Shown here: piece after piece, positions 11,938-57,879 of the stretch | Numbering within the stretch: the stretch's first letter is position 1 | How the letters are laid out: the number at the start of each line of letters is the position of its first letter | Source: Mucilaginibacter yixingensis | Lineage (GTDB): Bacteria; Bacteroidota; Bacteroidia; Sphingobacteriales; Sphingobacteriaceae | Direction: 5' to 3' | DNA length: 64,000 nucleotides | NCBI RefSeq assembly: GCF_041080815.1 | Contig: NZ_CP160205.1 | Location: 2,604,001-2,668,000 of the forward strand | Position numbers and translations under genes: made by a program | Notes under the pieces: generated by a model | What the model saw: only the letters and a program-made list of their open reading frames with translations | Told to the model about the DNA's origin: nothing | Database searches by the model: none

Positions 11938-12062
11938 CAGGATTTAACGAATTTTTAGGATTTACCAGATCTTCCTTTACTCCGCTTACCTATTTTATTA
12001 ATATTCTATGTTTTATAATTCGAACCAGCATCTTATAAATCCTAAAAATTCGTTAAATCCTG
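11938..12062. repeat. Perfect 27-bp inverted repeat upstream of trpD
   Basis: Positions 11938-11964 (starting CAGGATTTAACGAATTTTTA) are the exact reverse complement of 12036-12062. About 71 bp separate the arms. The pair sits between the attenuator hairpin and the trpD start, within the transcribed leader, so it can form a long stem in the mRNA. It shares AATCC-type units with the 9061-9138 repeat. Confidence 0.85.
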
Positions 12063-12066
12063 GTTT

Positions 12067-12131
12067 AAAAAAAAAGGTCGCCTTACGGCAACCCTTTTTT
12101 ATATTTTATATAAACAAACACAGGGATTGCC
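12067..12131 (-). promoter_or_regulatory. trp attenuator: terminator and antiterminator segments
   Basis: On the minus strand GGTTGCC, the tetraloop GTAA and GGCGACC form a 7-bp stem (12076-12093) followed by nine T (12067-12075), an intrinsic terminator. Upstream, GGCAATCCC (12123-12131) can pair with GGGTTGCC (12087-12094) with one bulge and would break the terminator. It begins directly after the leader peptide stop. A ribosome stalled at the Trp codons would be expected to favour antitermination. Confidence 0.85.
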
Positions 12132-12179
12132 TTACGATCTCTCGTTCAGCCACCACCATTTGTTGTTTAATACTGTCAT
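12132..12179 (-). CDS. trpL: trp operon leader peptide with three tandem Trp codons
   Basis: The ORF encodes MTVLNNKWWWLNERS. Three adjacent TGG codons lie at 12150-12158. The stop is one base from the antiterminator segment, and the terminator hairpin and U tract follow about 40 nt later, ahead of trpD. Three consecutive Trp codons in 15 are very unlikely by chance and are the hallmark of trp attenuation. The peptide should control readthrough into trpDFBA according to charged tRNA-Trp supply and needs no function of its own. Confidence 0.88.
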   Translation of the reverse strand: MTVLNNKWWWLNERS

Positions 12180-12194
12180 TTTTTAAATGTGCAG

Positions 12195-12225
12195 CAAATA
12201 TGTAAATTGTTTTTTCCAAAAGCAA
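12195..12225 (-). promoter_or_regulatory. Probable trp promoter
   Basis: On the minus strand a TTG (12223-12225) lies 20 bp upstream of CATATTTG (12195-12202), one mismatch from TAnnTTTG. Transcription would begin a few bases before the leader ATG, leaving a very short 5' end. Confidence 0.5.
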
Positions 12226-12247
12226 GCAGATTAAATAAATTTACGCC

Positions 12248-13207
12248 ATGCCTATCCACAAGCGCAAATTTAACCCCGAAGACGATCTTGGTTTCGGCCA
12301 GCAACCGGTAATGAAAAACCAGCCCTTGCTTAACCGGGATGGTTCCACCAACGTAAAACGGATGGGGCACAGCATTTTTAGTACTACTGACACCTATCAT
12401 GACCTGATTACCATGAGTTGGGGACGTTTTTGGGTAGTGGTACTCAGTGGCTACTTCGTCATCAACATTGCTTTTGCATTTATTTACCTCATAGCCGGCA
12501 TTCAAAACCTTGACGGTGCTGAGGGCAAGAATTTTTTTGAACATTTCTCTAATGCATTCTTTTTTTCGGCTCAAACTATGTCGACCGTGGGTTATGGACA
12601 TATCAGTCCGAAGGGATTGACTACTAACAGTATTGCCGCGCTGGAGTCTATGCTCGGCTTACTTTGTTTTGCCTTAGCTACCGGCCTGCTTTACGGGCGT
12701 TTTTCGCGACCGTCGGCCAAGTTAGTTTACAGCAAGAATATACTGATTGCCCCTTACCGTGAACATAGCCGGGGCATTATGTTCAGACTGGCCAATAAGC
12801 GAAAGAATTTATTGATAGATCTGGTTGTCGAGGTGATTTTCTCCTACAACGAAATGGTTAACGGAAAGCCCATCCGCCGGTTTATTCCTCTGGAGTTGGA
12901 ACGCCGCCACGTGAGCCTGCTGACCATGAGCTGGACCATCGTTCATCCGCTGGATGATGCCAGTCCGCTGCGCGACCTAACGCATGATGAGTTTATTAAA
13001 AGCGAAGCCAGTTTCAGCATCCTGCTCAAAGCGTTTGACGATACTTTCTCGCAAACGGTCCATTCACGCGCCGCCTATATGCCTAATGATATTGTTTGGG
13101 ATGCCCGGTTTAAGCCAGCTTTTGACCGCGACGATGAGGGCAGAATTATTCTGGACTTAGGGAAGATTCATGATTATGAAGAACATACCCTTCCGAGCTT
13201 TAAATAA
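12248..13207 (+). CDS. KirBac-type inward-rectifier potassium channel
   Basis: The 319-residue protein has two membrane helices (about 60-84 and 130-152) around a pore loop with the selectivity filter TVGYG at 113-117. The C-terminal cytoplasmic immunoglobulin-like domain (about 165-300) shows family segments such as RLANKRKNLLIDL and the LTMSWTIVHPLDDASPL stretch. It should form a tetrameric potassium channel gated by its cytoplasmic domain and lipids. It is divergent from the trp leader and shares that intergenic region. Length and organisation are normal for KirBac. Confidence 0.93.
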   Translation: MPIHKRKFNPEDDLGFGQQPVMKNQPLLNRDGSTNVKRMGHSIFSTTDTYHDLITMSWGRFWVVVLSGYFVINIAFAFIYLIAGIQNLDGAEGKNFFEHFSNAFFFSAQTMSTVGYGHISPKGLTTNSIAALESMLGLLCFALATGLLYGRFSRPSAKLVYSKNILIAPYREHSRGIMFRLANKRKNLLIDLVVEVIFSYNEMVNGKPIRRFIPLELERRHVSLLTMSWTIVHPLDDASPLRDLTHDEFIKSEASFSILLKAFDDTFSQTVHSRAAYMPNDIVWDARFKPAFDRDDEGRIILDLGKIHDYEEHTLPSFK

Positions 13208-13213
13208 TAGCCA

Positions 13214-13291
13214 TGTCATGCTGAGCTTGTCGAAGCACTAACAAACTATTTGTGGGCCATCGCGCGCCCTTCGACGATGCTCAGGATGACA
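13214..13291. repeat. Imperfect palindromic intergenic repeat
   Basis: TGTCATGCTGAGCTTGTCG starts the left arm, and the right arm ends ...GATGCTCAGGATGACA. Both arms carry the GTCGAAG/CTTCGAC pair. The element lies between convergent genes. Confidence 0.65.
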
Positions 13292-13316
13292 CCCTACGCT
13301 TCTTTCAAATGGACGA

Positions 13317-14135
13317 TTACTTCAGCAAGGGATCTTTCTCTTTAGCAAAAACGTTATAAACCAGCTTATCCAGCACCGCAGGAATAAACTTGCTCAGCGC
13401 TACGGTAAGTTTGCCCTGGCCGGTCATGATGAGGGTGCGTGAGCGATTCTCTACGCCGTATACAATGCGTTTTGCAACCTCTTCGGCAGTCATCATTTTT
13501 TCTTCTTCCATGCTGCTTTCACCTTGCTGATTGCCGCTTTTGTTAAGCGCTGTGTTACGGATATTGGACGCAGTAAAACCAGGACAAGCCGTCATCACAT
13601 GTACGCCGGTTTTGAGGTTTTCTACGCGTAGAGAGTCAAGGAAACCATTCATGGCAAATTTTGAGGCCGAGTAACCGGTGCGGCCCGGCAGGCCTTTATA
13701 ACCGGCGATGGACGATACGCCCACAATACTGCCTTTATTTTTCAGAATCTCTGGATAAGCATGTTTAGTGCAATACACCATGCCCCAAAAATTCACATCC
13801 ATGAGTGTTTTTAGAACGTTTAGATCTAAATCTTTATTAAATAATGCGCGCATGCTTATGCCGGCGTTGTTCACCAGCACATCAATGCGTCCAAAAGTTG
13901 CTACAGCTTGTTTAATTAAAGCTACACAGTCGTCCTCTTTACTCACATCGCACTGTACAGCAAGCGCCTTAACACCGTGCTGCTTTTCTAGCTGTTCGGT
14001 CAGCTCGCAAAGGGTTACGTACTGACGTGCTCCCAATACTACCGAGGCACCGCGCGATGCAAATTCAAAGGCTAAAGCTTTACCAATGCCCGATGAGGCG
14101 CCGGTAATGACAACAATCTTGTTATTCAATTTCAT
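13317..14135 (-). CDS. Short-chain dehydrogenase/reductase
   Basis: The 272-residue Rossmann enzyme has the cofactor motif TGASSGIGKA (residues 11-20), NNAG near 88, the catalytic Ser in VSSIAG and the YSASK Tyr/Lys pair. The C-terminal extension after 195 resembles DltE/YqjQ-like SDRs. The substrate is not predictable. Its start overlaps the glycosyltransferase end by 14 bp, so the two are co-translated. Confidence 0.9.
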   Translation of the reverse strand: MKLNNKIVVITGASSGIGKALAFEFASRGASVVLGARQYVTLCELTEQLEKQHGVKALAVQCDVSKEDDCVALIKQAVATFGRIDVLVNNAGISMRALFNKDLDLNVLKTLMDVNFWGMVYCTKHAYPEILKNKGSIVGVSSIAGYKGLPGRTGYSASKFAMNGFLDSLRVENLKTGVHVMTACPGFTASNIRNTALNKSGNQQGESSMEEEKMMTAEEVAKRIVYGVENRSRTLIMTGQGKLTVALSKFIPAVLDKLVYNVFAKEKDPLLK

Positions 14136-27643: not shown

Positions 27644-27800
27644 TGGAGAATTCGCTGATATTGACCACCTGATTTCGGCGCAAACTGACCACCGATTCCG
27701 CGGGAAAGTGACCACCTGATTTCGGAGGAAACTGACCACCCCGAACGAGCCACATATGCTGTAGAAGCAGGCCTATTTTTGAGGTTTAACAACTTCACTA

Positions 27801-29351
27801 ATGGCCAACACTACGATAAGCATGAGTAAGATAAGACAGATCCTCAGGATGTACAGCCAGGGCCGCAGCAAGCTATCGATAGCGGCCCAGACCGGCGTGT
27901 CACGCAATACCGCAAAGAAGTACCTTATTGCGTTCGATGCCAGCGGCTTTACGTTCGAGGAAATCAATACCCTTAATGATAAGGAGCTGGAGGACTTCTT
28001 TGGCAAAAGCAGTGAACGTCCCCCGGACAAGCGAATGGTGGCCCTGCAACGCTGTTTCCCGCAGATAGATAAAGAGTTAAAGCGTGTCGGTATGAACCGC
28101 CGCATCCTGTGGGAAGCTTATATCAAAGAGTTCCCTGACGGGTTCAAGTACACCCAATTCTGCTTTTATTACAACCAGTGGAAAGCCCGCGTGAACCCCA
28201 CGATGCACCTGGATCATAAAGCCGGTGATAAGCTGTATGTGGACTTTGCCGGTGAAAAGCTAAGCATAGCGGACAAGGATACCGGTGAGGTCATCGAGGC
28301 CGAGGTGTTCGTTGCTATCCTTGGCGCCAGCCAACTAACTTACGTAGAAGCTGTGCTGAGCCAGCAGAAAGAAGACTTTATAGCAGCCTGTGAGAATGCC
28401 CTGCACTTTTATGGCGGCGTACCTGCCGCCATCGTTCCCGACAACCTGAAGGCTGCCGTTACCAAGAGTAACCGCTATGAGCCAACGCTGAACGAGACCT
28501 TTGCTGACTTTGCCGACCATTACGGAACGACCATCTTACCAGCGAGGGCGTACCGCCCTCGTGACAAAGCACTGGTAGAAGGAGCCGTTAAGATCGTTTA
28601 CAGCCGTATCTACGCACCTGTTCGCAAAGAGGCCTATCATACCCTTGCAGAACTGAATATCGCGATCAAGGTCGCTTTAGAAGCACATAACAGCCAGCCG
28701 CTGAAAGGCCGCAATTACAGCAGAAAGCTCCAGTTCGAGGAGATAGAACGCCAGGCACTCTCGCCATTACCGGCATTACGTTATGAGTTCAAACGGCAGC
28801 ACCAGGCCACTGTAATGAAGAACGGACATGTTTGTCTGGGTATCGACAAACACTACTACAGCGTACCGTACCGCTTTATCGGCAGGAAGGTCAAACTGCT
28901 GTATTCCCGCACCAACGTAGAAGTCTACTACCACTATGAACGCATCGCCATGCACAGGCGCATCAAAAGCCCTTACAGCTACACAACGGATAAAGATCAC
29001 CTGGCTTCGACACACCGCTTTATGACCGAATGGACACCCGATAAGTTCCTGGAATGGGCAGCATCCATTCACGAGGATGTGAGGCTTTACATCCTGAAGA
29101 TACTGGACCGAAAGCAACATCCGGAACAAGCTTACCGCTCCTGTATCGGTATCCTCAGCCTGGCGCGCAAGGCAGGTAACGAAAGGCTGGCCAGCGCTTG
29201 CAGGCGTGCGCTCGGCTATGGCGTGTACAACTACAAGACCATACAGCAGATACTGGAGAACAAGATGGACAGCTACGAGGAAAGCTTATTTGCTGACGAG
29301 CTGCCTATGCCCAGCCATGACAATATCCGGGGAGAGAACTACTATAAATAA
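27801..29351 (+). CDS. istA: IS21-family transposase IstA
   Basis: The 516-residue transposase has an N-terminal HTH (about 10-40, SIAAQTGVSRNTAKKYL) and an rve-type DDE core beginning with LYVDFAGEKL, the second Asp in AIVPDNLKAAV and the Glu in RDKALVEGAVKIVYSRI. A C-terminal Mu-type domain follows. It should cut and join the IS ends with IstB as targeting ATPase. The sequence is identical to the copy-2 product. Confidence 0.95.
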   Translation: MANTTISMSKIRQILRMYSQGRSKLSIAAQTGVSRNTAKKYLIAFDASGFTFEEINTLNDKELEDFFGKSSERPPDKRMVALQRCFPQIDKELKRVGMNRRILWEAYIKEFPDGFKYTQFCFYYNQWKARVNPTMHLDHKAGDKLYVDFAGEKLSIADKDTGEVIEAEVFVAILGASQLTYVEAVLSQQKEDFIAACENALHFYGGVPAAIVPDNLKAAVTKSNRYEPTLNETFADFADHYGTTILPARAYRPRDKALVEGAVKIVYSRIYAPVRKEAYHTLAELNIAIKVALEAHNSQPLKGRNYSRKLQFEEIERQALSPLPALRYEFKRQHQATVMKNGHVCLGIDKHYYSVPYRFIGRKVKLLYSRTNVEVYYHYERIAMHRRIKSPYSYTTDKDHLASTHRFMTEWTPDKFLEWAASIHEDVRLYILKILDRKQHPEQAYRSCIGILSLARKAGNERLASACRRALGYGVYNYKTIQQILENKMDSYEESLFADELPMPSHDNIRGENYYK

Positions 29352-29371
29352 CCATTAATGAACAGATCGAT

Positions 29372-30133
29372 ATGAACACGAACACCTTAGACAAACTTCG
29401 CAAACTGAAGTTCTATGGCATGTACCATGCCTTTAAAAGCTGCCTGGAAACGGGACAGACCGCAGAATACACCACTGATGAACTGCTGGCCCACCTGGTA
29501 GAGGCCGAATGGGACGACCGGCAGAACAGGCGCATAGAGCGTACGATCATGTATGCTAAGTTCCGCTATAAGGCCTCGGTAGAGAACATCCACTACCATG
29601 CCGACCGTAGTATCGACCGCAATCAGGTAATGCGCCTGGCAGACTGCCACTTTATTGACCGGAATGAGAACCTGTTGATCACAGGCAGCACCGGTATCGG
29701 CAAAAGCTATATCGCTTCTGCTATCGGACACCAAGCCTGCATACTGGGTTACCGCGTGTTCTATGCCAGCACACCCAAACTCTTTGCTAAGCTGAAGATG
29801 GCCAAGGCAGATGGTTCCTACATGAAGGATGTAGCCAAACTGGAACGCCAGCAACTACTGATCCTGGATGACTTCGGTATACAACCTTTTGATGCGCAGA
29901 GCAGGGCCGCACTGATGGAGATCATTGAGGACAGGCACGGTAAGACATCCCTGATCATCACCTCTCAGCTGCCGGTCAGTAAATGGTATGAGGTCATTGG
30001 TGAAAAGACGATCGCTGATGCTATCCTCGACCGCATCGTGCATGATGCGCACCGGATGGAACTAAAGGGAGAGTCGATGAGAAAAAGAAGGCCCGCAGAG
30101 CCCGAAAAAAGCTATCTGCAAAACACACTTTAA
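29372..30133 (+). CDS. istB: IS21-family ATP-binding protein IstB
   Basis: The 253-residue AAA+ ATPase has Walker A GSTGIGKSY, Walker B LLILDDFG and a C-terminal RMELKGESMRKRR tail. IstB assembles on target DNA and recruits IstA. It begins 20 bp after istA. The product is identical to that of copy 2. Confidence 0.95.
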   Translation: MNTNTLDKLRKLKFYGMYHAFKSCLETGQTAEYTTDELLAHLVEAEWDDRQNRRIERTIMYAKFRYKASVENIHYHADRSIDRNQVMRLADCHFIDRNENLLITGSTGIGKSYIASAIGHQACILGYRVFYASTPKLFAKLKMAKADGSYMKDVAKLERQQLLILDDFGIQPFDAQSRAALMEIIEDRHGKTSLIITSQLPVSKWYEVIGEKTIADAILDRIVHDAHRMELKGESMRKRRPAEPEKSYLQNTL

Positions 30134-30272
30134 ATAACTACTTTTGACAACGCTTCTACAGCGTTCGCTGCGCTCGTTCGCCAGCACTTTGGGTGGTCAA
30201 TTTGCCACGGAATCACCTGGTCAACTTCTCCGTATTATACAATTAAGATCCAGGTAGCAAAATTTAACCATG

Positions 30273-48138: not shown

Positions 48139-48418
48139 GATGTTATTCAGGAAAAGGTGATCCCGAAGATAAGAGGATAATCTTTACCCTAAAAATTGCT
48201 TACCTAAAATTCCGCCCCTTATGTATCGCATCTTCCGCCTGCGGGCTTTTTAACGGTTTCTCCATTGGTATAAACGGCGAAGCTTTCTCGTCTGCGCGAG
48301 ACAGCGTGAGTGTATAATACGGAGAAGTTGACCAGGTGATTCCGTGGCAAATTGACCACCCAAAGTGCTGGCGAACGAGCGCAGCGAACGCTGTAGAAGC
48401 GTTGTCAAAAGTAGTTAT

Positions 48419-49180
48419 TTAAAGTGTGTTTTGCAGATAGCTTTTTTCGGGCTCTGCGGGCCTTCTTTTTCTCATCGACTCTCCCTTTAGTTCCATCCGG
48501 TGCGCATCATGCACGATGCGGTCGAGGATAGCATCAGCGATCGTCTTTTCACCAATGACCTCATACCATTTACTGACCGGCAGCTGAGAGGTGATGATCA
48601 GGGATGTCTTACCGTGCCTGTCCTCAATGATCTCCATCAGTGCGGCCCTGCTCTGCGCATCAAAAGGTTGTATACCGAAGTCATCCAGGATCAGTAGTTG
48701 CTGGCGTTCCAGTTTGGCTACATCCTTCATGTAGGAACCATCTGCCTTGGCCATCTTCAGCTTAGCAAAGAGTTTGGGTGTGCTGGCATAGAACACGCGG
48801 TAACCCAGTATGCAGGCTTGGTGTCCGATAGCAGAAGCGATATAGCTTTTGCCGATACCGGTGCTGCCTGTGATCAACAGGTTCTCATTCCGGTCAATAA
48901 AGTGGCAGTCTGCCAGGCGCATTACCTGATTGCGGTCGATACTACGGTCGGCATGGTAGTGGATGTTCTCTACCGAGGCCTTATAGCGGAACTTAGCATA
49001 CATGATCGTACGCTCTATGCGCCTGTTCTGCCGGTCGTCCCATTCGGCCTCTACCAGGTGGGCCAGCAGTTCATCAGTGGTGTATTCTGCGGTCTGTCCC
49101 GTTTCCAGGCAGCTTTTAAAGGCATGGTACATGCCATAGAACTTCAGTTTGCGAAGTTTGTCTAAGGTGTTCGTGTTCAT
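48419..49180 (-). CDS. istB: IS21-family ATP-binding protein IstB (copy 2)
   Basis: This 253-residue AAA+ ATPase is identical to the copy-1 product, with GSTGIGKSY and LLILDDFG. It follows istA by 20 bp on the minus strand. Large antisense frames over it are shadows. Confidence 0.95.
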   Translation of the reverse strand: MNTNTLDKLRKLKFYGMYHAFKSCLETGQTAEYTTDELLAHLVEAEWDDRQNRRIERTIMYAKFRYKASVENIHYHADRSIDRNQVMRLADCHFIDRNENLLITGSTGIGKSYIASAIGHQACILGYRVFYASTPKLFAKLKMAKADGSYMKDVAKLERQQLLILDDFGIQPFDAQSRAALMEIIEDRHGKTSLIITSQLPVSKWYEVIGEKTIADAILDRIVHDAHRMELKGESMRKRRPAEPEKSYLQNTL

Positions 49181-49200
49181 ATCGATCTGTTCATTAATGG

Positions 49201-50751
49201 TTATTTATAGTAGTTCTCTCCCCGGATATTGTCATGGCTGGGCATAGGCAGCTCGTCAGCAAATAAGCTTTCCTCGTAGCTGTCCATCTTGTTCTCCAGT
49301 ATCTGCTGTATGGTCTTGTAGTTGTACACGCCATAGCCGAGCGCACGCCTGCAAGCGCTGGCCAGCCTTTCGTTACCTGCCTTGCGCGCCAGGCTGAGGA
49401 TACCGATACAGGAGCGGTAAGCTTGTTCCGGATGTTGCTTTCGGTCCAGTATCTTCAGGATGTAAAGCCTCACATCCTCGTGAATGGATGCTGCCCATTC
49501 CAGGAACTTATCGGGTGTCCATTCGGTCATAAAGCGGTGTGTCGAAGCCAGGTGATCTTTATCCGTTGTGTAGCTGTAAGGGCTTTTGATGCGCCTGTGC
49601 ATGGCGATGCGTTCATAGTGGTAGTAGACTTCTACGTTGGTGCGGGAATACAGCAGTTTGACCTTCCTGCCGATAAAGCGGTACGGTACGCTGTAGTAGT
49701 GTTTGTCGATACCCAGACAAACATGTCCGTTCTTCATTACAGTGGCCTGGTGCTGCCGTTTGAACTCATAACGTAATGCCGGTAATGGCGAGAGTGCCTG
49801 GCGTTCTATCTCCTCGAACTGGAGCTTTCTGCTGTAATTGCGGCCTTTCAGCGGCTGGCTGTTATGTGCTTCTAAAGCGACCTTGATCGCGATATTCAGT
49901 TCTGCAAGGGTATGATAGGCCTCTTTGCGAACAGGTGCGTAGATACGGCTGTAAACGATCTTAACGGCTCCTTCTACCAGTGCTTTGTCACGAGGGCGGT
50001 ACGCCCTCGCTGGTAAGATGGTCGTTCCGTAATGGTCGGCAAAGTCAGCAAAGGTCTCGTTCAGCGTTGGCTCATAGCGGTTACTCTTGGTAACGGCAGC
50101 CTTCAGGTTGTCGGGAACGATGGCGGCAGGTACGCCGCCATAAAAGTGCAGGGCATTCTCACAGGCTGCTATAAAGTCTTCTTTCTGCTGGCTCAGCACA
50201 GCTTCTACGTAAGTTAGTTGGCTGGCGCCAAGGATAGCAACGAACACCTCGGCCTCGATGACCTCACCGGTATCCTTGTCCGCTATGCTTAGCTTTTCAC
50301 CGGCAAAGTCCACATACAGCTTATCACCGGCTTTATGATCCAGGTGCATCGTGGGGTTCACGCGGGCTTTCCACTGGTTGTAATAAAAGCAGAATTGGGT
50401 GTACTTGAACCCGTCAGGGAACTCTTTGATATAAGCTTCCCACAGGATGCGGCGGTTCATACCGACACGCTTTAACTCTTTATCTATCTGCGGGAAACAG
50501 CGTTGCAGGGCCACCATTCGCTTGTCCGGGGGACGTTCACTGCTTTTGCCAAAGAAGTCCTCCAGCTCCTTATCATTAAGGGTATTGATTTCCTCGAACG
50601 TAAAGCCGCTGGCATCGAACGCAATAAGGTACTTCTTTGCGGTATTGCGTGACACGCCGGTCTGGGCCGCTATCGATAGCTTGCTGCGGCCCTGGCTGTA
50701 CATCCTGAGGATCTGTCTTATCTTACTCATGCTTATCGTAGTGTTGGCCAT
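49201..50751 (-). CDS. istA: IS21-family transposase IstA (copy 2)
   Basis: This 516-residue DDE transposase is identical to the copy-1 product and looks intact. With two identical active-looking copies, further transposition or recombination between copies is possible. Confidence 0.95.
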   Translation of the reverse strand: MANTTISMSKIRQILRMYSQGRSKLSIAAQTGVSRNTAKKYLIAFDASGFTFEEINTLNDKELEDFFGKSSERPPDKRMVALQRCFPQIDKELKRVGMNRRILWEAYIKEFPDGFKYTQFCFYYNQWKARVNPTMHLDHKAGDKLYVDFAGEKLSIADKDTGEVIEAEVFVAILGASQLTYVEAVLSQQKEDFIAACENALHFYGGVPAAIVPDNLKAAVTKSNRYEPTLNETFADFADHYGTTILPARAYRPRDKALVEGAVKIVYSRIYAPVRKEAYHTLAELNIAIKVALEAHNSQPLKGRNYSRKLQFEEIERQALSPLPALRYEFKRQHQATVMKNGHVCLGIDKHYYSVPYRFIGRKVKLLYSRTNVEVYYHYERIAMHRRIKSPYSYTTDKDHLASTHRFMTEWTPDKFLEWAASIHEDVRLYILKILDRKQHPEQAYRSCIGILSLARKAGNERLASACRRALGYGVYNYKTIQQILENKMDSYEESLFADELPMPSHDNIRGENYYK

Positions 50752-52083
50752 TAGTGAAGTTGTTAAACCTCAAAAATAGGCCTGCTTCTACAGCATATGT
50801 GGCTCGTTCGGGGTGGTCAGTTTCCTCCGAAATCAGGTGGTCACTTTCCCGCGGAATCGGTGGTCAGTTTGCGCCGAAATCAGGTGGTCAATATCAGCGA
50901 ATTCTCCAGCGTGAGCACTGGTTGCTGCTCATTAGGTATTGCGGTCAGATTTCCCAGCAACTTAGTGATGTCAAATACCCTCCTGACAATAATATGAGTT
51001 ACCTCGGTACATTCTACCATGCCTTCGACCATCAGCAACCGCGCGTGCAGAATCTCTTTGCGGAACTTATCAAATAGCTTAGGAAAAACAACTAGATTAG
51101 TAGTGCCGGTTTCATCTTCGAGCGTAATGAAGCAAACTCCTTTGGCCGTGCTGGGCGCTGGCGGATTAGAATCAGGCCGGCAGTTTTGATAAATGTTTTA
51201 TTCTCAGTTTGATTGGCCTGCTTAGCAGGTATAATGCGCAGCATATCCAACTGGTGCCTGATGAAGCTAATCGGATGACCTTTGATTGAAAGCCCTGTAG
51301 TAGCATAATCCTGGACAACATGTTCTGATTGCTGGAGCAGGGGCAACTGTACCTGGGGCTCATAATTGCTTTCCGACAGCTGGCCTTCGTAAAGCTGAAT
51401 GGGTCTGTCATGCAACGCCGCAACTTCCCATAGTGCCTCTCGCCGGCCAAGTTCCATAGAACGAAACACATCTGCATTAGCTAATTGTTCCATGGTTGCG
51501 ACGCTGATACCAGCATCGCAAAGCTGATGTGGTTGAGTGTAGGGAATAACCCTATTTATCGTAATCTTTTCCATCTCCTCCTGCCGCATTCCTTTGATCT
51601 GCCGGAAGCCGAGGCGAAGGCCGCAATACTTGCCGTCTTTACTCTCCAGCGTATTATTCCAGTGAGAATGATTGATATCGATAGGCAAGATCTTCACACC
51701 ATGTTCTTCAGCATTGCGCGCGATCTGAGCAGGCTGATAAAACCCCATCGGCTGACTGTTCAGTAATGCAGCTGCGAAGGCGTCAGGATAATAGTATTTG
51801 AGCCAGCAGGAAACATAAACCAGTAGCGCAAAGCTGGCAGCATGGCTTTCGGGAAAACCGTAGCTGCCAAAACCTTCGAGCTGCTTGAATATACGCTGCG
51901 CATATTCTTTAGTGTATCCCCTGGCGGTCATTCCGTTGATCAGCTTATGTTCGAACTTTGTAACCAGACCATTAAATTTAAAGGTCGCCATGCTGCGCCG
52001 GAGTAAATCAGCCTCGCCTGGCGTAAAACCGGCGGCAACTATCGCCAATTCCATGGCGCCTGCCATAACACTTCAATTTTGGG

Positions 52084-53453: not shown

Positions 53454-53815
53454 TCAAAAATCCCGGTATTCCGCCCAAGAACGGGGCACCGTTCTCGCGA
53501 TGATCCCGCGTTCGGTCAGCGCCAGGCCTTCCTCGCTGAACCGGCCAACCAGCGCGCCTCCCGGCTTCCCCATTCGTTCTTTTTGATCAGCGCCTGGCCA
53601 ACGACTTAGCTGTCGCTGAAATCCCCGGAACAAAACTCGAAATAGCGTTCGTCCTGCAGGCGCACATTATCCGAGTACCGTTCGGAGCGGCCATGCGTCA
53701 CCCTCAGGCCGATAAAATGATCCACATCATGTTCGCCCCAGTAAATGATCGGGTGCCAGGCCTCCGCGCGTGTCCGGTAACGCGCAGGCGCAAAAAAGAT
53801 ATCCCCGCATTCCAT
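53454..53815 (-). pseudogene. Decayed fourth gene of the GHKL-PRTase operon
   Basis: ATG at 53815, 5 bp after the phosphoesterase stop, starts MECGDIFFAPARYRTRAEAW and runs 69 residues to a TAA at 53606. Past that stop the same frame reads VVGQALIKKNEW, and after one missing base in GGGG (near 53566) it reads KPGGALVGRFSEEGLALTER to 53454. One nonsense change and one frameshift thus explain a former protein of about 120 residues. The first part resembles small MazF/PemK-like barrels only vaguely. Confidence 0.5.
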
Positions 53816-53820
53816 CAACC

Positions 53821-55629
53821 TCAGGTCTGTGAAGCATCATAGAACTCATGTACACAGGCCAGCTTCTCCCGGTAGATCATACAGGTTTCCCGGAAATCCT
53901 TCCCGTAAGGGCAGCGCTCCACCTTCATATGCGACACAAAATAATGGTCTACCCTTAAGTTCGAAGCATTGCTGACGATATTATCCGGCGTACTGCCGGT
54001 ATAAAACAGGCTCACCACCGAAATACGGTCGATATGCTCCGGCTTGAAGAACTCCTGCTCGTTCTCCACCAGCCGGTCCACTGTCTTTCCGTTATTCACA
54101 ACATCCGTAATGATCAGGATATGCCGGAAGCGCCCGCCGTTCTCCACCGCGATCTTTTTCTCATAGGCCTCATGGTCATTATACCGGTAAGAATAAGGCA
54201 GGTAAGAAAAAGGCTTGTCCGACCGCAAACCCGTATAGCTCCCAATAATATTCCCTTCGATCCCCAGCGCCAGCACAAAATCGAAATCCAGCTCGTTCCT
54301 CGTCACCACATCATAAATGGCTTTTTGTGCCAGCATGACATGGTCGCGCTCCGAAAGCAGCATCGGCACATCGATCCAGTTATGCGCTTTGGAAGAATCG
54401 CTCCAGTGGAAATGCCCCGACTTGAACAGGTTGAGCTCTTTTACAATGCCGAACAGCTTTTTGTGGTATTCATTCTTATTAAAATCGAACACCAGACTGC
54501 CTGCACCTCCATCGGCTTCAGGCGCGACCATTTCCGTTGCGCCATCCTCAGCTCCCGGCCCGGCCTCAGTCCCTGGTCGCGGCATCGCCAGCAGGTCATG
54601 CGTCTCGATCACTATCTCCGCTGCAACCGGCTGCCGCAGCACGATACGGCCGATATTTTCATTATTGTCATTCTTTTGCAGTTTGCTCCAGGAGCCAAAA
54701 GGAAAATCCGTATGGGCATGCTCATTGCGCAGGCCATGGATAAAATGATCCAGGAAAAGCCCGGATTCGGTATCGATCCGATAGACCTTAAAACCACCGG
54801 GTACATCCGTTTTAGAAAAGGCCGGAGCCGCGATCATGGCTAATTGGTTCACACTGTTCGAGGCCGAAGTGTGCTCGTTGCCGTACATCACCACACCGAA
54901 ACCATGTCGCTCAAGTACTCTTTTGACCTCGATTTTATTGTGGGCATCCCACTGGCCGTCCAGGTTATTTTCGTACTGCCCGTAAAAGTTGTGATGAAAG
55001 ACCGCAATCTTGACAAAGTCCGTGTATTCCGTTAATAAGGCCGTTAGTTCTGCATCCAGTTGATCCTGGTCGATAAAGCCCTTGCCACCCACGATACCGA
55101 TATGGCCGTTCGAATTCAGGCCGATCAAAAGTAATCGCTCCTCCGTAAAAACCAGTGTGTCCGTAATGATCGAATCGTAAGCAAAATCCCGCTCTAAAAA
55201 ACTTTGGTAAAAGGCCGAAAAGTCCGCGAACTTTGCCTCATGTAATTCATAAGGTTTCTGCCGCTTATCCGATGCGGCATAAGCATTGGTCAGCTTCATG
55301 CGATTGACATCGTGATCGCCCGGCACCACCATGATTTTTTCCGATGGAATCCCCAGTTTATCTGTTAAACGCTTCAGAAAGTATACCGCGAAATGGTACT
55401 CTGGCTCATAGCTCTTGTCGGCGATGTCGCCGGAAATGATCAGGTACTTTTCATCAGCACCATAATGCGTCTGGACATGCGCGCAAAATTCGTCAATGAA
55501 ATTCTTGCCGATATTGTTCGCTTCCGAAGTGGTCAGATAGGAGCCTGGTTTGGTGATCAGTTCCTCATCCTCGTTCTTATGGCTCGACACATGCAGGTCA
55601 GACAGATGTATAATTACCTTGGCACTCAT
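53821..55629 (-). CDS. Metallophosphoesterase fused to orotate-PRTase-like domain
   Basis: The 602-residue fusion has a calcineurin-like phosphoesterase (4-300) with HLSDLH (Asp11, His13), SGD (Asp68), GDHD (104-107), HH (212-213) and GNEH (250-253), where GHxH is usual. A glycine/acid-rich linker (350-378) follows. The C-terminal type I phosphoribosyltransferase-like domain (385-590) resembles PyrE, with FKSGHFHWSDSSKAHNWID and the PRPP loop ILIITDVVNNGKTVD (504-518). It overlaps the upstream PRTase gene by ATGA. A pathway that handles a phosphoribosylated compound is inference. Confidence 0.85.
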   Translation of the reverse strand: MSAKVIIHLSDLHVSSHKNEDEELITKPGSYLTTSEANNIGKNFIDEFCAHVQTHYGADEKYLIISGDIADKSYEPEYHFAVYFLKRLTDKLGIPSEKIMVVPGDHDVNRMKLTNAYAASDKRQKPYELHEAKFADFSAFYQSFLERDFAYDSIITDTLVFTEERLLLIGLNSNGHIGIVGGKGFIDQDQLDAELTALLTEYTDFVKIAVFHHNFYGQYENNLDGQWDAHNKIEVKRVLERHGFGVVMYGNEHTSASNSVNQLAMIAAPAFSKTDVPGGFKVYRIDTESGLFLDHFIHGLRNEHAHTDFPFGSWSKLQKNDNNENIGRIVLRQPVAAEIVIETHDLLAMPRPGTEAGPGAEDGATEMVAPEADGGAGSLVFDFNKNEYHKKLFGIVKELNLFKSGHFHWSDSSKAHNWIDVPMLLSERDHVMLAQKAIYDVVTRNELDFDFVLALGIEGNIIGSYTGLRSDKPFSYLPYSYRYNDHEAYEKKIAVENGGRFRHILIITDVVNNGKTVDRLVENEQEFFKPEHIDRISVVSLFYTGSTPDNIVSNASNLRVDHYFVSHMKVERCPYGKDFRETCMIYREKLACVHEFYDASQT

Positions 55630-56645
55630 AACAGATTGTTCAAAGCGGTCAAAATTTGGTAATCGATCGGGTTATTTTCCCGCGAGATATGGAACACACT
55701 CAGCGCATCCTTCGCCTGGTCACCCGGCCTGAGCGTATCCACCTTCACGATTGATACATGGCCGATATACTGACCGCCGGAATAATTGATGATGTTCTGG
55801 CAGATGCGGACCTCCGTCCCCAGGCAGACCATATCTGCGACTACGATATAACGGGCATCCGATTTGATCTTGCTGCCGATATTGCTGTACACCTTATTCA
55901 CCGGCCCGATGTGGTCCATCGACAGCAGGTCCCATTTCAGAAAACCGGACAGTACGGTCGCGATCAGCGCGCCATTCATATTCTGGCAGAACAGGATCGG
56001 CTTTTCATCCCCGGAGCTCCATTCGGCTTTAGCGAGCATTTGCAGCGCCAGCCGGTAGATCACGTACAAAAAGAACGGCTGGTCGGCCACCGCCATGCCT
56101 TTGATGTCCACGAACTTGGGCAGATAGATCGGCGAATGGTGATGAAAAGCCTCTTGGGTGCCGTTATCGATCGTATGCGCCTGCAGCAGCTGCACGAATT
56201 TTTTATAGAATAATTCGTCCAGGGGAACCAGTTCCAGCGCCGGCGCCTGGTCGCTGACATGGAAGACCGGGTAAGCATCATCCATCAGCGCGTTATTGAC
56301 ATAGATATCGACCTCCAGGCGCTTGACGATCGGCAAACCGATATTGGTCAGCACCAAATGGCGCACTAGGCTTTTGAGCTTCACGATCAGCGGACGCTGA
56401 TTGATCTGCACATCCCGGACACCCTCAAAATCGATGACAAGGTCATGGTCCCGGCCATGCACGGTCGCCTCGATATAAGCACAGATATTGGTCAATGTTT
56501 CCTTGGTGAGCTCCTGACCGTAGATGCCCGCATCGATATTGACCTCCACGTCACCCTTGTCCGCAAGGTAAGTGCCCGTATAGGATTGCTCCGCGTGCGC
56601 CGTGATATAGATCACCTGCTCTTTTATGATCGCCGATATCACCAT
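55626..56645 (-). CDS. Phosphoribosyltransferase-like protein with N-terminal STAS-like region
   Basis: The 339-residue protein has an N-terminal alpha/beta region (1-130; DLVIDFEGVRDVQINQRPLIVKL resembles the STAS core) and a C-terminal PRTase-like domain. The PRPP-loop-like segment is YIVVADMVCLGTEVR (266-280), and PILFCQNMNGALIATVL fits the preceding strand-helix. It begins 1 bp after the GHKL ATPase gene and overlaps the phosphoesterase fusion, so the three are one translational unit. The acidic pair of the loop is partly changed, so catalysis is uncertain. Confidence 0.75.
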   Translation of the reverse strand: MVISAIIKEQVIYITAHAEQSYTGTYLADKGDVEVNIDAGIYGQELTKETLTNICAYIEATVHGRDHDLVIDFEGVRDVQINQRPLIVKLKSLVRHLVLTNIGLPIVKRLEVDIYVNNALMDDAYPVFHVSDQAPALELVPLDELFYKKFVQLLQAHTIDNGTQEAFHHHSPIYLPKFVDIKGMAVADQPFFLYVIYRLALQMLAKAEWSSGDEKPILFCQNMNGALIATVLSGFLKWDLLSMDHIGPVNKVYSNIGSKIKSDARYIVVADMVCLGTEVRICQNIINYSGGQYIGHVSIVKVDTLRPGDQAKDALSVFHISRENNPIDYQILTALNNLL

Positions 56646-56646
56646 G

Positions 56647-57879
56647 TCAGTTCGCTATTTTGGGGATCTCGGTTTCGATGTGCACGCCCGGGAGCTTAAT
56701 GCTAAAAATTCGGATGGAAGAATACTGCACGTCCTCGGTATAACGCTGAAAGACGGTCAGCGCGAGCTGTAGGATGGCCTGCCGGGCTTTCTGCGAAAGC
56801 ATCGTCATCCGCTCCAGGAACTCGTCCTCGGCGATCTCCCCAAAGCCCGCCTGGCTGTGCGTATTGGCGATTGCGATCCGGATCTCCTGCAGCTCGGTCA
56901 GCTCGCGGCTCATGCGGCTGGAAACGATGATCTGCACGCTGTCATAATGCAGCCGGAAATAGCCCTTGCAGCTGACCACGATATTGATCATCAAGTCGAA
57001 CAGGCCACGCCGGTTCTTCAGCATCGAAAAATAGAAGGTTTCGAAGATCGAAAAGGCACATTTCTGCACCTCCGCCGACATTTTTAGGCGAACCCGGCCC
57101 TCCAGTTCCTTGAATACCCCCAGTGGCTCATAGTACGATGTCGGAGGTTTATCCGCGATGGTCGGGTACAGGCCGATCCCCTTATCCGCGATCGAGCAAC
57201 TGAGCTTGAACCGCCCGCTGAACATCATCACATAAGCATCGCTTTTGGAATGGAACAGCCCGTTGGTGATCAGCTCCGCCATGGTATTGATCACATTCCG
57301 GCGGGTCCGATTATCCGTATCCGCATCCGAGATCAGCTCTTCGAAATGCTTGGTCACCGAGAAAGAAAAATATTCGATCAGGTCGTCCCGCTGGGCTTCC
57401 TCGCTGCACTTGCTGTCCACCACCGAAGCCATCGCCGAGTCGTCAAGCGAATAGATTCGCACCTTGTGGTCCGCCCGCTGTTCCTTTTTACTGCGGAAGT
57501 CACCGACCTGCCGCTCATCGAACTGGAAGATCCTCCTACCCAGCGGGAAGGTAGGGTTCATATTATTGCCGATGATATACAGAAAATCCGAGCGCTGCAG
57601 GAACTTGATCAGGTGATTGGACACCAAATCGTTCTCGAAGATCAGCCGCGCGCGCTTCTGGTGAAAATCTTTGAGGTAGGCCCCCAGTGTGATCAGCAGG
57701 GGCAGCGTATTAGGCTCGATCACCAAGTCATTATCGAGCACGATATCCGGCGGATCATATTTATTAGCCGCCGTCCTGTAATATTGCGACAGCTCCTTCA
57801 GGAACTCGTTGTAGAACCTGAATGAGGTGAAAGGCGTTCCTTCCTTTAAGGACAATATGATAGCGTGCTCTGTGATCAT
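56647..57879 (-). CDS. GHKL ATPase with STAS-like N-terminal domain
   Basis: The 410-residue soluble protein has an N-terminal region (45-105) resembling STAS domains (PPDIVLDNDLVIEPNTLPLLITLG) and a GHKL ATPase domain. The N box is NTMAELITNGLFHS (Glu202, Asn206), and the G1 box DKGIG lies at 232-236. No HisKA domain is present, so it is not a standard histidine kinase; anti-sigma-like or MutL-like switches are closer. It is the first gene of the operon. Confidence 0.82.
   Translation of the reverse strand: MITEHAIILSLKEGTPFTSFRFYNEFLKELSQYYRTAANKYDPPDIVLDNDLVIEPNTLPLLITLGAYLKDFHQKRARLIFENDLVSNHLIKFLQRSDFLYIIGNNMNPTFPLGRRIFQFDERQVGDFRSKKEQRADHKVRIYSLDDSAMASVVDSKCSEEAQRDDLIEYFSFSVTKHFEELISDADTDNRTRRNVINTMAELITNGLFHSKSDAYVMMFSGRFKLSCSIADKGIGLYPTIADKPPTSYYEPLGVFKELEGRVRLKMSAEVQKCAFSIFETFYFSMLKNRRGLFDLMINIVVSCKGYFRLHYDSVQIIVSSRMSRELTELQEIRIAIANTHSQAGFGEIAEDEFLERMTMLSQKARQAILQLALTVFQRYTEDVQYSSIRIFSIKLPGVHIETEIPKIAN

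Follow-up and report, generated by a model that had tools for sequence, protein, structure and literature searches.

A horizontally mobile three-gene operon of Mucilaginibacter yixingensis as a candidate anti-phage module, laid out as a putative kinase, a STAS adaptor and an effector

Related defence systems and the three-gene locus

Several described anti-phage systems resemble, each in part, a three-gene operon that lies in Mucilaginibacter yixingensis within a 64,000-nucleotide stretch of contig NZ_CP160205.1 (assembly GCF_041080815.1, positions 2,604,001 to 2,668,000; hereafter "the window," with coordinates counted from its first letter). In VapKSC, the kinase VapK is proposed to phosphorylate the STAS domain of VapS, freeing a PIN toxin; against one phage the protection amounts to approximately 2 logs, and 36% of vapKSC occurrences are near other defence genes (PMC13373217). 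In DS-8 and DS-9, the catalytic residues of a metallophosphatase are essential for anti-phage defence (PMC13092281). Effectors with a phosphoribosyltransferase (PRTase) fold are used in defence by type III retrons and by DprA-PRTase systems (PMC12548924, PMC9122126).

All three genes of the operon are intact and tightly packed on the minus strand (57879..53821), as are all features of this copy given below. Gene 1 (56647..57879; complete open reading frame [ORF], 410 amino acids) encodes a predicted STAS-GHKL ATPase or kinase, the proposed switch. It is separated by 1 base pair (bp) from gene 2 (55626..56645; complete ORF, 339 amino acids), a predicted STAS-like and type I PRTase-fold protein that we propose to be an adaptor or inhibitor. 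Gene 2 in turn overlaps by 4 bp with gene 3 (53821..55629; 602 amino acids), a calcineurin-type metallophosphoesterase fused to a PRTase domain resembling orotate phosphoribosyltransferase (OPRT), the proposed effector. The G+C content of the operon is 51.5%, compared to 44.7% for the window.

The operon is similar to VapKSC in three respects: the order of STAS-GHKL protein, STAS (here STAS-like) protein and effector, which holds at all 14 loci examined (see below); a kinase with STAS and GHKL domains, which gene 1 also appears to have; and frequent proximity to other defence genes. It differs in that the adaptor carries a PRTase domain rather than a short tail or a winged helix-turn-helix (wHTH), that the conserved STAS Ser/Thr is missing from gene 2, and that the effector is a metallophosphoesterase-PRTase rather than a PIN nuclease. 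Unlike the kinases of VapKSC and CapK systems, gene 1 has no HTH; in VapKSC, single-stranded DNA activates the kinase by way of an aromatic residue. We consider the operon to work in a VapKSC-like manner but, having neither that residue nor a PIN effector, to fall outside the family. Gene 3 has a metallophosphoesterase domain homologous to those of DS-9A and DS-8 (PMC13092281). However, DS-9 pairs its metallophosphatase with a HAD phosphatase, whereas the partners here are a STAS-GHKL and a STAS-PRTase protein at every locus, and in DS-8 the metallophosphatase goes with a NACHT domain rather than being fused to a PRTase. The scores of gene 3 are far under the equivalog cut-offs of both families, so the proteins are homologous and not equivalent. 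By their defining features, the set is neither VapKSC nor DS-9. The retron and DprA-PRTase effectors share the PRTase fold, but here there are two PRTase domains, the one in gene 3 being OPRT-like, and neither a reverse transcriptase (checked at all 14 loci) nor DprA is found among the three genes.

The initial annotation of this DNA could match the genes to no named system, and this still holds. In the window, genes 1 and 2 receive no name from Pfam, PADLOC, NCBIfam or PHROGs, and none of the libraries names the three-gene set, so that assignment to a system known to them was rejected. A literature search confined to open-licence papers found no paper describing the set.

Co-inheritance, mobility and defence neighbourhood

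The same annotation had named a lack of co-occurrence in other genomes as one of two findings that would refute it; the genes do co-occur. We examined 14 loci (the window, L006-L009, L015, L016, L021, L022 and L030-L034) from eight genera and three families of one phylum. At every one of them gene 2 is flanked by genes 1 and 3 in constant order and strand, with intergenic spacings from -23 to +19 bp. Gene 2 is rare, with relatives in approximately 1-3% of the genomes searched: 5 of 150 close relatives (its own genome counted), 7 of 400 genomes across the order, 3 of 395 across the phylum and 6 of 246 within the family of genome G778. Of the carriers with a name, Mucilaginibacter sp. E4BP6 and L196 are the closest two. 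Among those 246 genomes, a full-length gene 1 (E-value below 1e-130) and a full gene 3 PRTase domain are present in exactly the six that have gene 2. A seventh genome retains only a 102 amino acid remnant of the gene 3 C-terminus. At L062 (6442-8717; also at L059), the remnant abuts a truncated Cas9-like ORF of 656 amino acids, with an adjoining ORF of 1452 amino acids that resembles a large NTPase. Gene 3 is damaged at two of the 14 loci: in L009 it is truncated, and in L034 it is split or carries a frameshift. The deepest copy, L022, shows only 18-20% identity and keeps the whole architecture.

The distance matrices of the three gene trees agree (Pearson r 0.92-0.96, Mantel p 0.0001), and gene 2 identities contradict the taxonomy: L016 (f1) and L030 (f22) share 71%, while two lineages inside the window's own genus share approximately 33%. 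The mirrored trees and their conflict with taxonomy show that the three genes move between species together. Tyrosine integrases, identified by reading the sequence rather than by a library run, are close to the operon in L006, L015, L016, L021 and L034. Those of L006 and L015 adjoin tRNA-Asp and tRNA-Lys, respectively, and that of L034 adjoins a tmRNA gene; L016 adjoins an ORF that we take to be mnmE. No relatives of gene 2 were found in the viral contigs, plasmids or phages searched, and profile scans of the viral contigs with genes 1 and 3 were empty; carriage by phages or plasmids was rejected on these searches.

Defence genes lie near the operon at 7 of the 14 loci, a share that is neither blind nor exhaustive, the neighbouring ORFs having been chosen by eye before the scan. 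These neighbours belong to unrelated systems: Hachiman HamA/HamB (E-values 1e-237/1e-142) and a PtuA/HNH pair (Septu) in L021; type I-B cas6-cas8b-cas7b-cas5b in L022; SIR2-HerA (1e-135/1e-158) in L030; a retron-type reverse transcriptase (1e-94) approximately 3 kb away, with an LmuA-like gene, in L032; AbiEi/AbiEii in L006; PDC-S73 (2e-155) in L008; and PDC-M54A in L007. An AbiJ-like gene adds to these. As a control, we compared the 43 other ORFs of the window with PADLOC at a threshold of 1e-20. They gave scattered single matches only (DrmD, PD-T4-6, DolB/PDC-M37B and mad6; best 3.6e-42), with no complete defence system and no reverse transcriptase family. The evidence for a defence-island context of the three-gene set is strong.

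Two loci carry a further gene behind gene 3. In L032, and in no other copy, gene 3 is followed at a distance of 2 bp by a RES-domain gene (11979-13061), possibly an added effector that degrades nicotinamide adenine dinucleotide (NAD); seen once, it is in line with a nucleotide theme. In L033, a CAP12/Pycsar TIR-like gene (12291-13436; E-value 5.9e-5) follows gene 3 after approximately 230 bp.

Domains of the three proteins

The metallophosphoesterase domain of gene 3 (amino acids 3-288; 54766..55623) had been described as complete and calcineurin-like with a GNEH motif, which our alignment bears out. The conserved motifs are D11xH13, G67D68, GDHD (104-107), H213 and GNEH (250-253). The pair of GDHD and GNEH is present in 13 of the 14 copies and is reversed in L022, which has the canonical GNHD and GDCH (corresponding to window 54870-55320); the apparent swap between clades thus keeps one Asp and one Asn. 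Amino acids 3-266 match NF053862 (DS9_1_antiphage) with an E-value of 1.7e-22, scoring 79.9 bits where the cut-off is 420; DS8 (NF053861) is matched at 7e-10. The best solved relative is Lmo2642 (E-value 6e-12), and there are weak profile links to Mre11/SbcD.

The C-terminal PRTase domain of gene 3 (amino acids 397-600; 53830..54441; loop TDVVNNGKT) is assigned by profile comparison with the PDB, which returns 23 matches at E-values up to 1, all of them PRTases or PRTase-fold proteins (OPRT, HGPRT, PurR and others). The alignment to uridine monophosphate (UMP) synthase/OPRT is nearly domain-length and includes the loop that binds phosphoribosyl pyrophosphate (PRPP). Amino acids 397-522 match pyrE (E-value 7e-4), the L034 homologue matches both PF00149 and PF00156 (Pribosyltran, 1.8e-4), and the C-terminus matches PADLOC PRTase_III-A weakly (0.011). 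In the loop DVVNNGKT, D509 and T516 are invariant where present. The similarity to PyrE extends over much of the length of the domain, but most copies have Thr or Ser in place of the first of the two PRPP-loop acids, and the stretch around the flexible catalytic loop is different. These profiles and motifs make gene 3 a fusion of a DS-8/DS-9-type metallophosphoesterase with an OPRT-like PRTase.

For gene 2, the assignment comes from structure. Its AlphaFold2 (AF2) model, like that of gene 1 made from an input alignment of three sequences, has a predicted local distance difference test (pLDDT) score of 54 overall and of 70-80 in the PRTase core, where the C-terminus forms a Rossmann-like core. 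Each of the 50 rows of the VIA structure comparison is a PRTase or PRTase-fold protein, with a top Z of 10.2 (111 residues, root-mean-square deviation 2.3) within amino acids 163-310. The Foldseek matches are of the same kind (E-value 4e-4), led by the PRTase-fold regulator PurR. The model thus places the C-terminal half in the type I PRTase fold, and for both proteins the claim of PRTase-like regions is confirmed, by fold for gene 2 and by profile for gene 3. The claim that both carry PRPP loops stands for gene 3, with the changed first acid of most copies, and less well for gene 2, whose loop is degenerate. The canonical PRPP loop is DD-xxxx-GxT, with two acids and a TGxT in which the Thr binds phosphate. 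In gene 2 (amino acids 266-278, YIVVADMVCLGTE; 55812..55850) all 14 copies read (S/A/G)D-xxxx-GTE, with D271, G276, T277 and E278 invariant, so that the first acid is missing and Glu replaces the final phosphate-binding Thr. Because the loop is broken, the PRTase may be non-catalytic or act differently; judged by these residues, enzymatic activity on PRPP is improbable. An hhalign comparison of the gene 2 and gene 3 PRTase domains is in register with an E-value of 0.013 but a probability of only 3%, which fails as sequence proof that the two domains are sisters.

The N-terminal domain of gene 2 (amino acids 1-135; 56241..56645) has the predicted order b-b-a-b-a-b-a-b in the AF2 model, which is the STAS topology. 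At the presumed start of STAS helix 2, the alignment column over the 14 loci is ISSAPPNPPDAPSH, whereas conservation is found at the neighbouring Q80 and N82; the predicted start of the helix and the general STAS pattern served to locate this position.

In gene 1, the N-box and G1 motifs of a GHKL ATPase had been noted in the window's copy alone, and they prove to be invariant in all 14 homologues (E202, L203, N206 and H210; D232, G234 and G236). The catalytic region (amino acids 190-310; 56950..57312), drawn from the 14-sequence alignment and hhalign, also includes a G2-like KxRxGLFD motif. The window's protein matches nothing meaningful in Pfam, and HATPase_c matches weakly in five of nine homologues. 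Against the PDB, the gene 1 profile finds only two histidine kinases, aligned on N-box and G1 (E-values 0.4 and 0.73). With hhalign it aligns to a STAS-GHKL protein of genome G920 across both motifs (E-value 5.5e-5). Next to its gene, on the downstream side, comes one for a DUF4325 STAS-like protein, and we read the pair as of the CapK/VapK type.

The N-terminal STAS domain of gene 1 (amino acids 1-99; 57583..57879) is suggested by VIA matches of its model to RsbV (6m36, Z 6.3), SLC26A11 (Z 6.4) and MlaB (Z 5.9 and 5.4). The full model has a mean pLDDT of 48 and an unfolded GHKL part, so the N-terminus was used on its own (first 50 residues approximately 73). The sole PDB match of the N-terminal profile is an SLC26 STAS domain (E-value 1.9). 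The support for each domain is modest by itself and consistent when taken jointly, which suggests that gene 1 is a STAS-GHKL protein. Elsewhere, at L061 (5582-7234; also at L050), a STAS-GHKL protein stands beside integrase fragments with a 95 amino acid DUF4325 STAS-like protein and, third, a 126 amino acid protein of unknown type; the trio may be another kinase-STAS-effector module.

A proposed switch, its alternatives and the flanking DNA

It is attractive to suppose that the three genes form a horizontally mobile anti-phage module whose logic follows that of VapKSC with a different effector; we give this reading a probability of about one half. Gene 1, as an ATP-using switch, would sense infection or damage to DNA, and the STAS half of gene 2 would be its target. 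The PRTase half of gene 2 would pair with the PRTase half of gene 3 and keep gene 3 inactive. When the switch fires, gene 3 would be released or re-shaped, and its metallophosphoesterase and OPRT-like domains could then act on a substrate of the phosphoribosyl or nucleotide kind, so that the cell ceases to grow and the phage to replicate.

Several observations weigh against this reading. The GHKL assignment of gene 1 rests on motifs and weak profile matches. The STAS domain of gene 2 has moderate support from a predicted topology (pLDDT approximately 50), and searches of known STAS sequences gave this domain no match. The Ser/Thr that is phosphorylated in CapS/VapS is not kept in gene 2, where the residues at the 14 loci are I,S,S,A,P,P,N,P,P,D,A,P,S,H; a classical phospho-serine switch is accordingly unsupported. 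The direct neighbours of the window's copy that were scanned had no PADLOC match, and the neighbours at the other loci were picked by eye, as stated above. Finally, while the domains, the operon, its co-inheritance, its mobility and its defence neighbourhood come from the data, the defence function, the direction of control, the sensing, the binding of gene 2 to gene 3, the toxicity of gene 3 and its hydrolysis target are elements that we propose.

As the phospho-serine is not conserved, either another residue would be modified or ATP-dependent binding would drive the switch. A stronger version, which we hold only tentatively, is that the set represents a new class of immune switch, in which a STAS-GHKL ATPase, without the classical STAS phosphoserine, controls a two-protein enzyme, the degenerate PRTase of gene 2 paired with the PRTase-metallophosphoesterase of gene 3, that consumes a phosphoribosyl or nucleotide substrate and so stops phage growth. 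If the VapKSC-like reading is right, a nucleotide-acting effector would join the outputs of the GHKL-STAS switch, so far tied to transcriptional repressors (CapKS) and to a PIN RNase toxin (VapKSC), and the PRTase and metallophosphatase effectors of retrons, DprA-PRTase, DS-8 and DS-9, so far unexplained, would gain a physical context. The invariant residues listed above make the mechanism testable with few mutants.

The initial annotation had favoured a nucleotide-type signal under the control of an ATPase switch, and its interpretation is, overall, partly supported. The switch is retained and a messenger is possible, but the STAS domain of gene 1 and the STAS-like domain of gene 2, which it had not seen, point to a partner switch of the CapK/VapK type rather than a free-standing nucleotide-signal pathway. 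In a messenger scheme, the PRTases would make or salvage an unusual signal nucleotide that the phosphoesterase makes or destroys, with the ATPase in control. PRTases with phosphatases have been proposed as makers of nucleotide signals in the Ter system (PMC7824862), the DS-8 metallophosphatase resembles the cyclic-dinucleotide hydrolase SMPDL3A (PMC13092281), and the RES-domain gene directly behind gene 3 in L032 would fit. However, the gene 2 loop appears unfit for PRPP, and we saw no further gene for a receptor or effector conserved behind the three at the 14 loci, so that the messenger would be without a dedicated target. We regard this scheme as unlikely, though the best of the alternatives to the VapKSC-like switch.

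Somewhat more doubtful still is a nuclease, in which the gene 3 phosphoesterase would attack phage DNA or RNA in the manner of Mre11/SbcD and the PRTase domains would only bind ligands or dimerise, as in PurR. The weak Mre11/SbcD links, the SbcD-like best PHROG match of the L022 copy and the PurR match of gene 2 are in its favour; yet Lmo2642 is far ahead of any nuclease, the best family is the DS-9 phosphatase, and an SbcC-type partner is absent from the three genes. A metabolic or stress operon, in which a partner switch regulates nucleotide salvage and for which genomic islands are no more than the carrier, would suit the metabolic type of the domains and the window copy's neighbours without PADLOC matches, but is improbable, since salvage genes are not expected to be so rare, to move horizontally and to lie repeatedly beside unrelated complete defence systems.

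The VapKSC-like reading concerns genes 1 to 3 only. The initial annotation had described a four-gene operon, of which the three intact genes with their 1-bp gap and 4-bp overlap stand and the fourth does not. This decayed ORF (53454..53818) has its ATG at 53815, 5 bp past the gene 3 stop, and is broken by an in-frame stop and a frameshift. Relatives of it are absent from 120 related genomes, from the other loci and from the plasmids searched; it was therefore rejected as an operon member and is not counted as a conserved part of the system.

Elsewhere in the window, an IS21-like element of 2.6 kb with istA/istB-type ORFs is present in two copies (27644-30241 and 48311-50908). The copies are in opposite orientation and 100% identical over 2598 bp, which indicates recent transposition. 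The second adjoins a gene fragment (51092-52066) similar to DNA polymerase III alpha/DnaE2 (HHH_6 and polymerase finger), the remainder of a broken polymerase gene.

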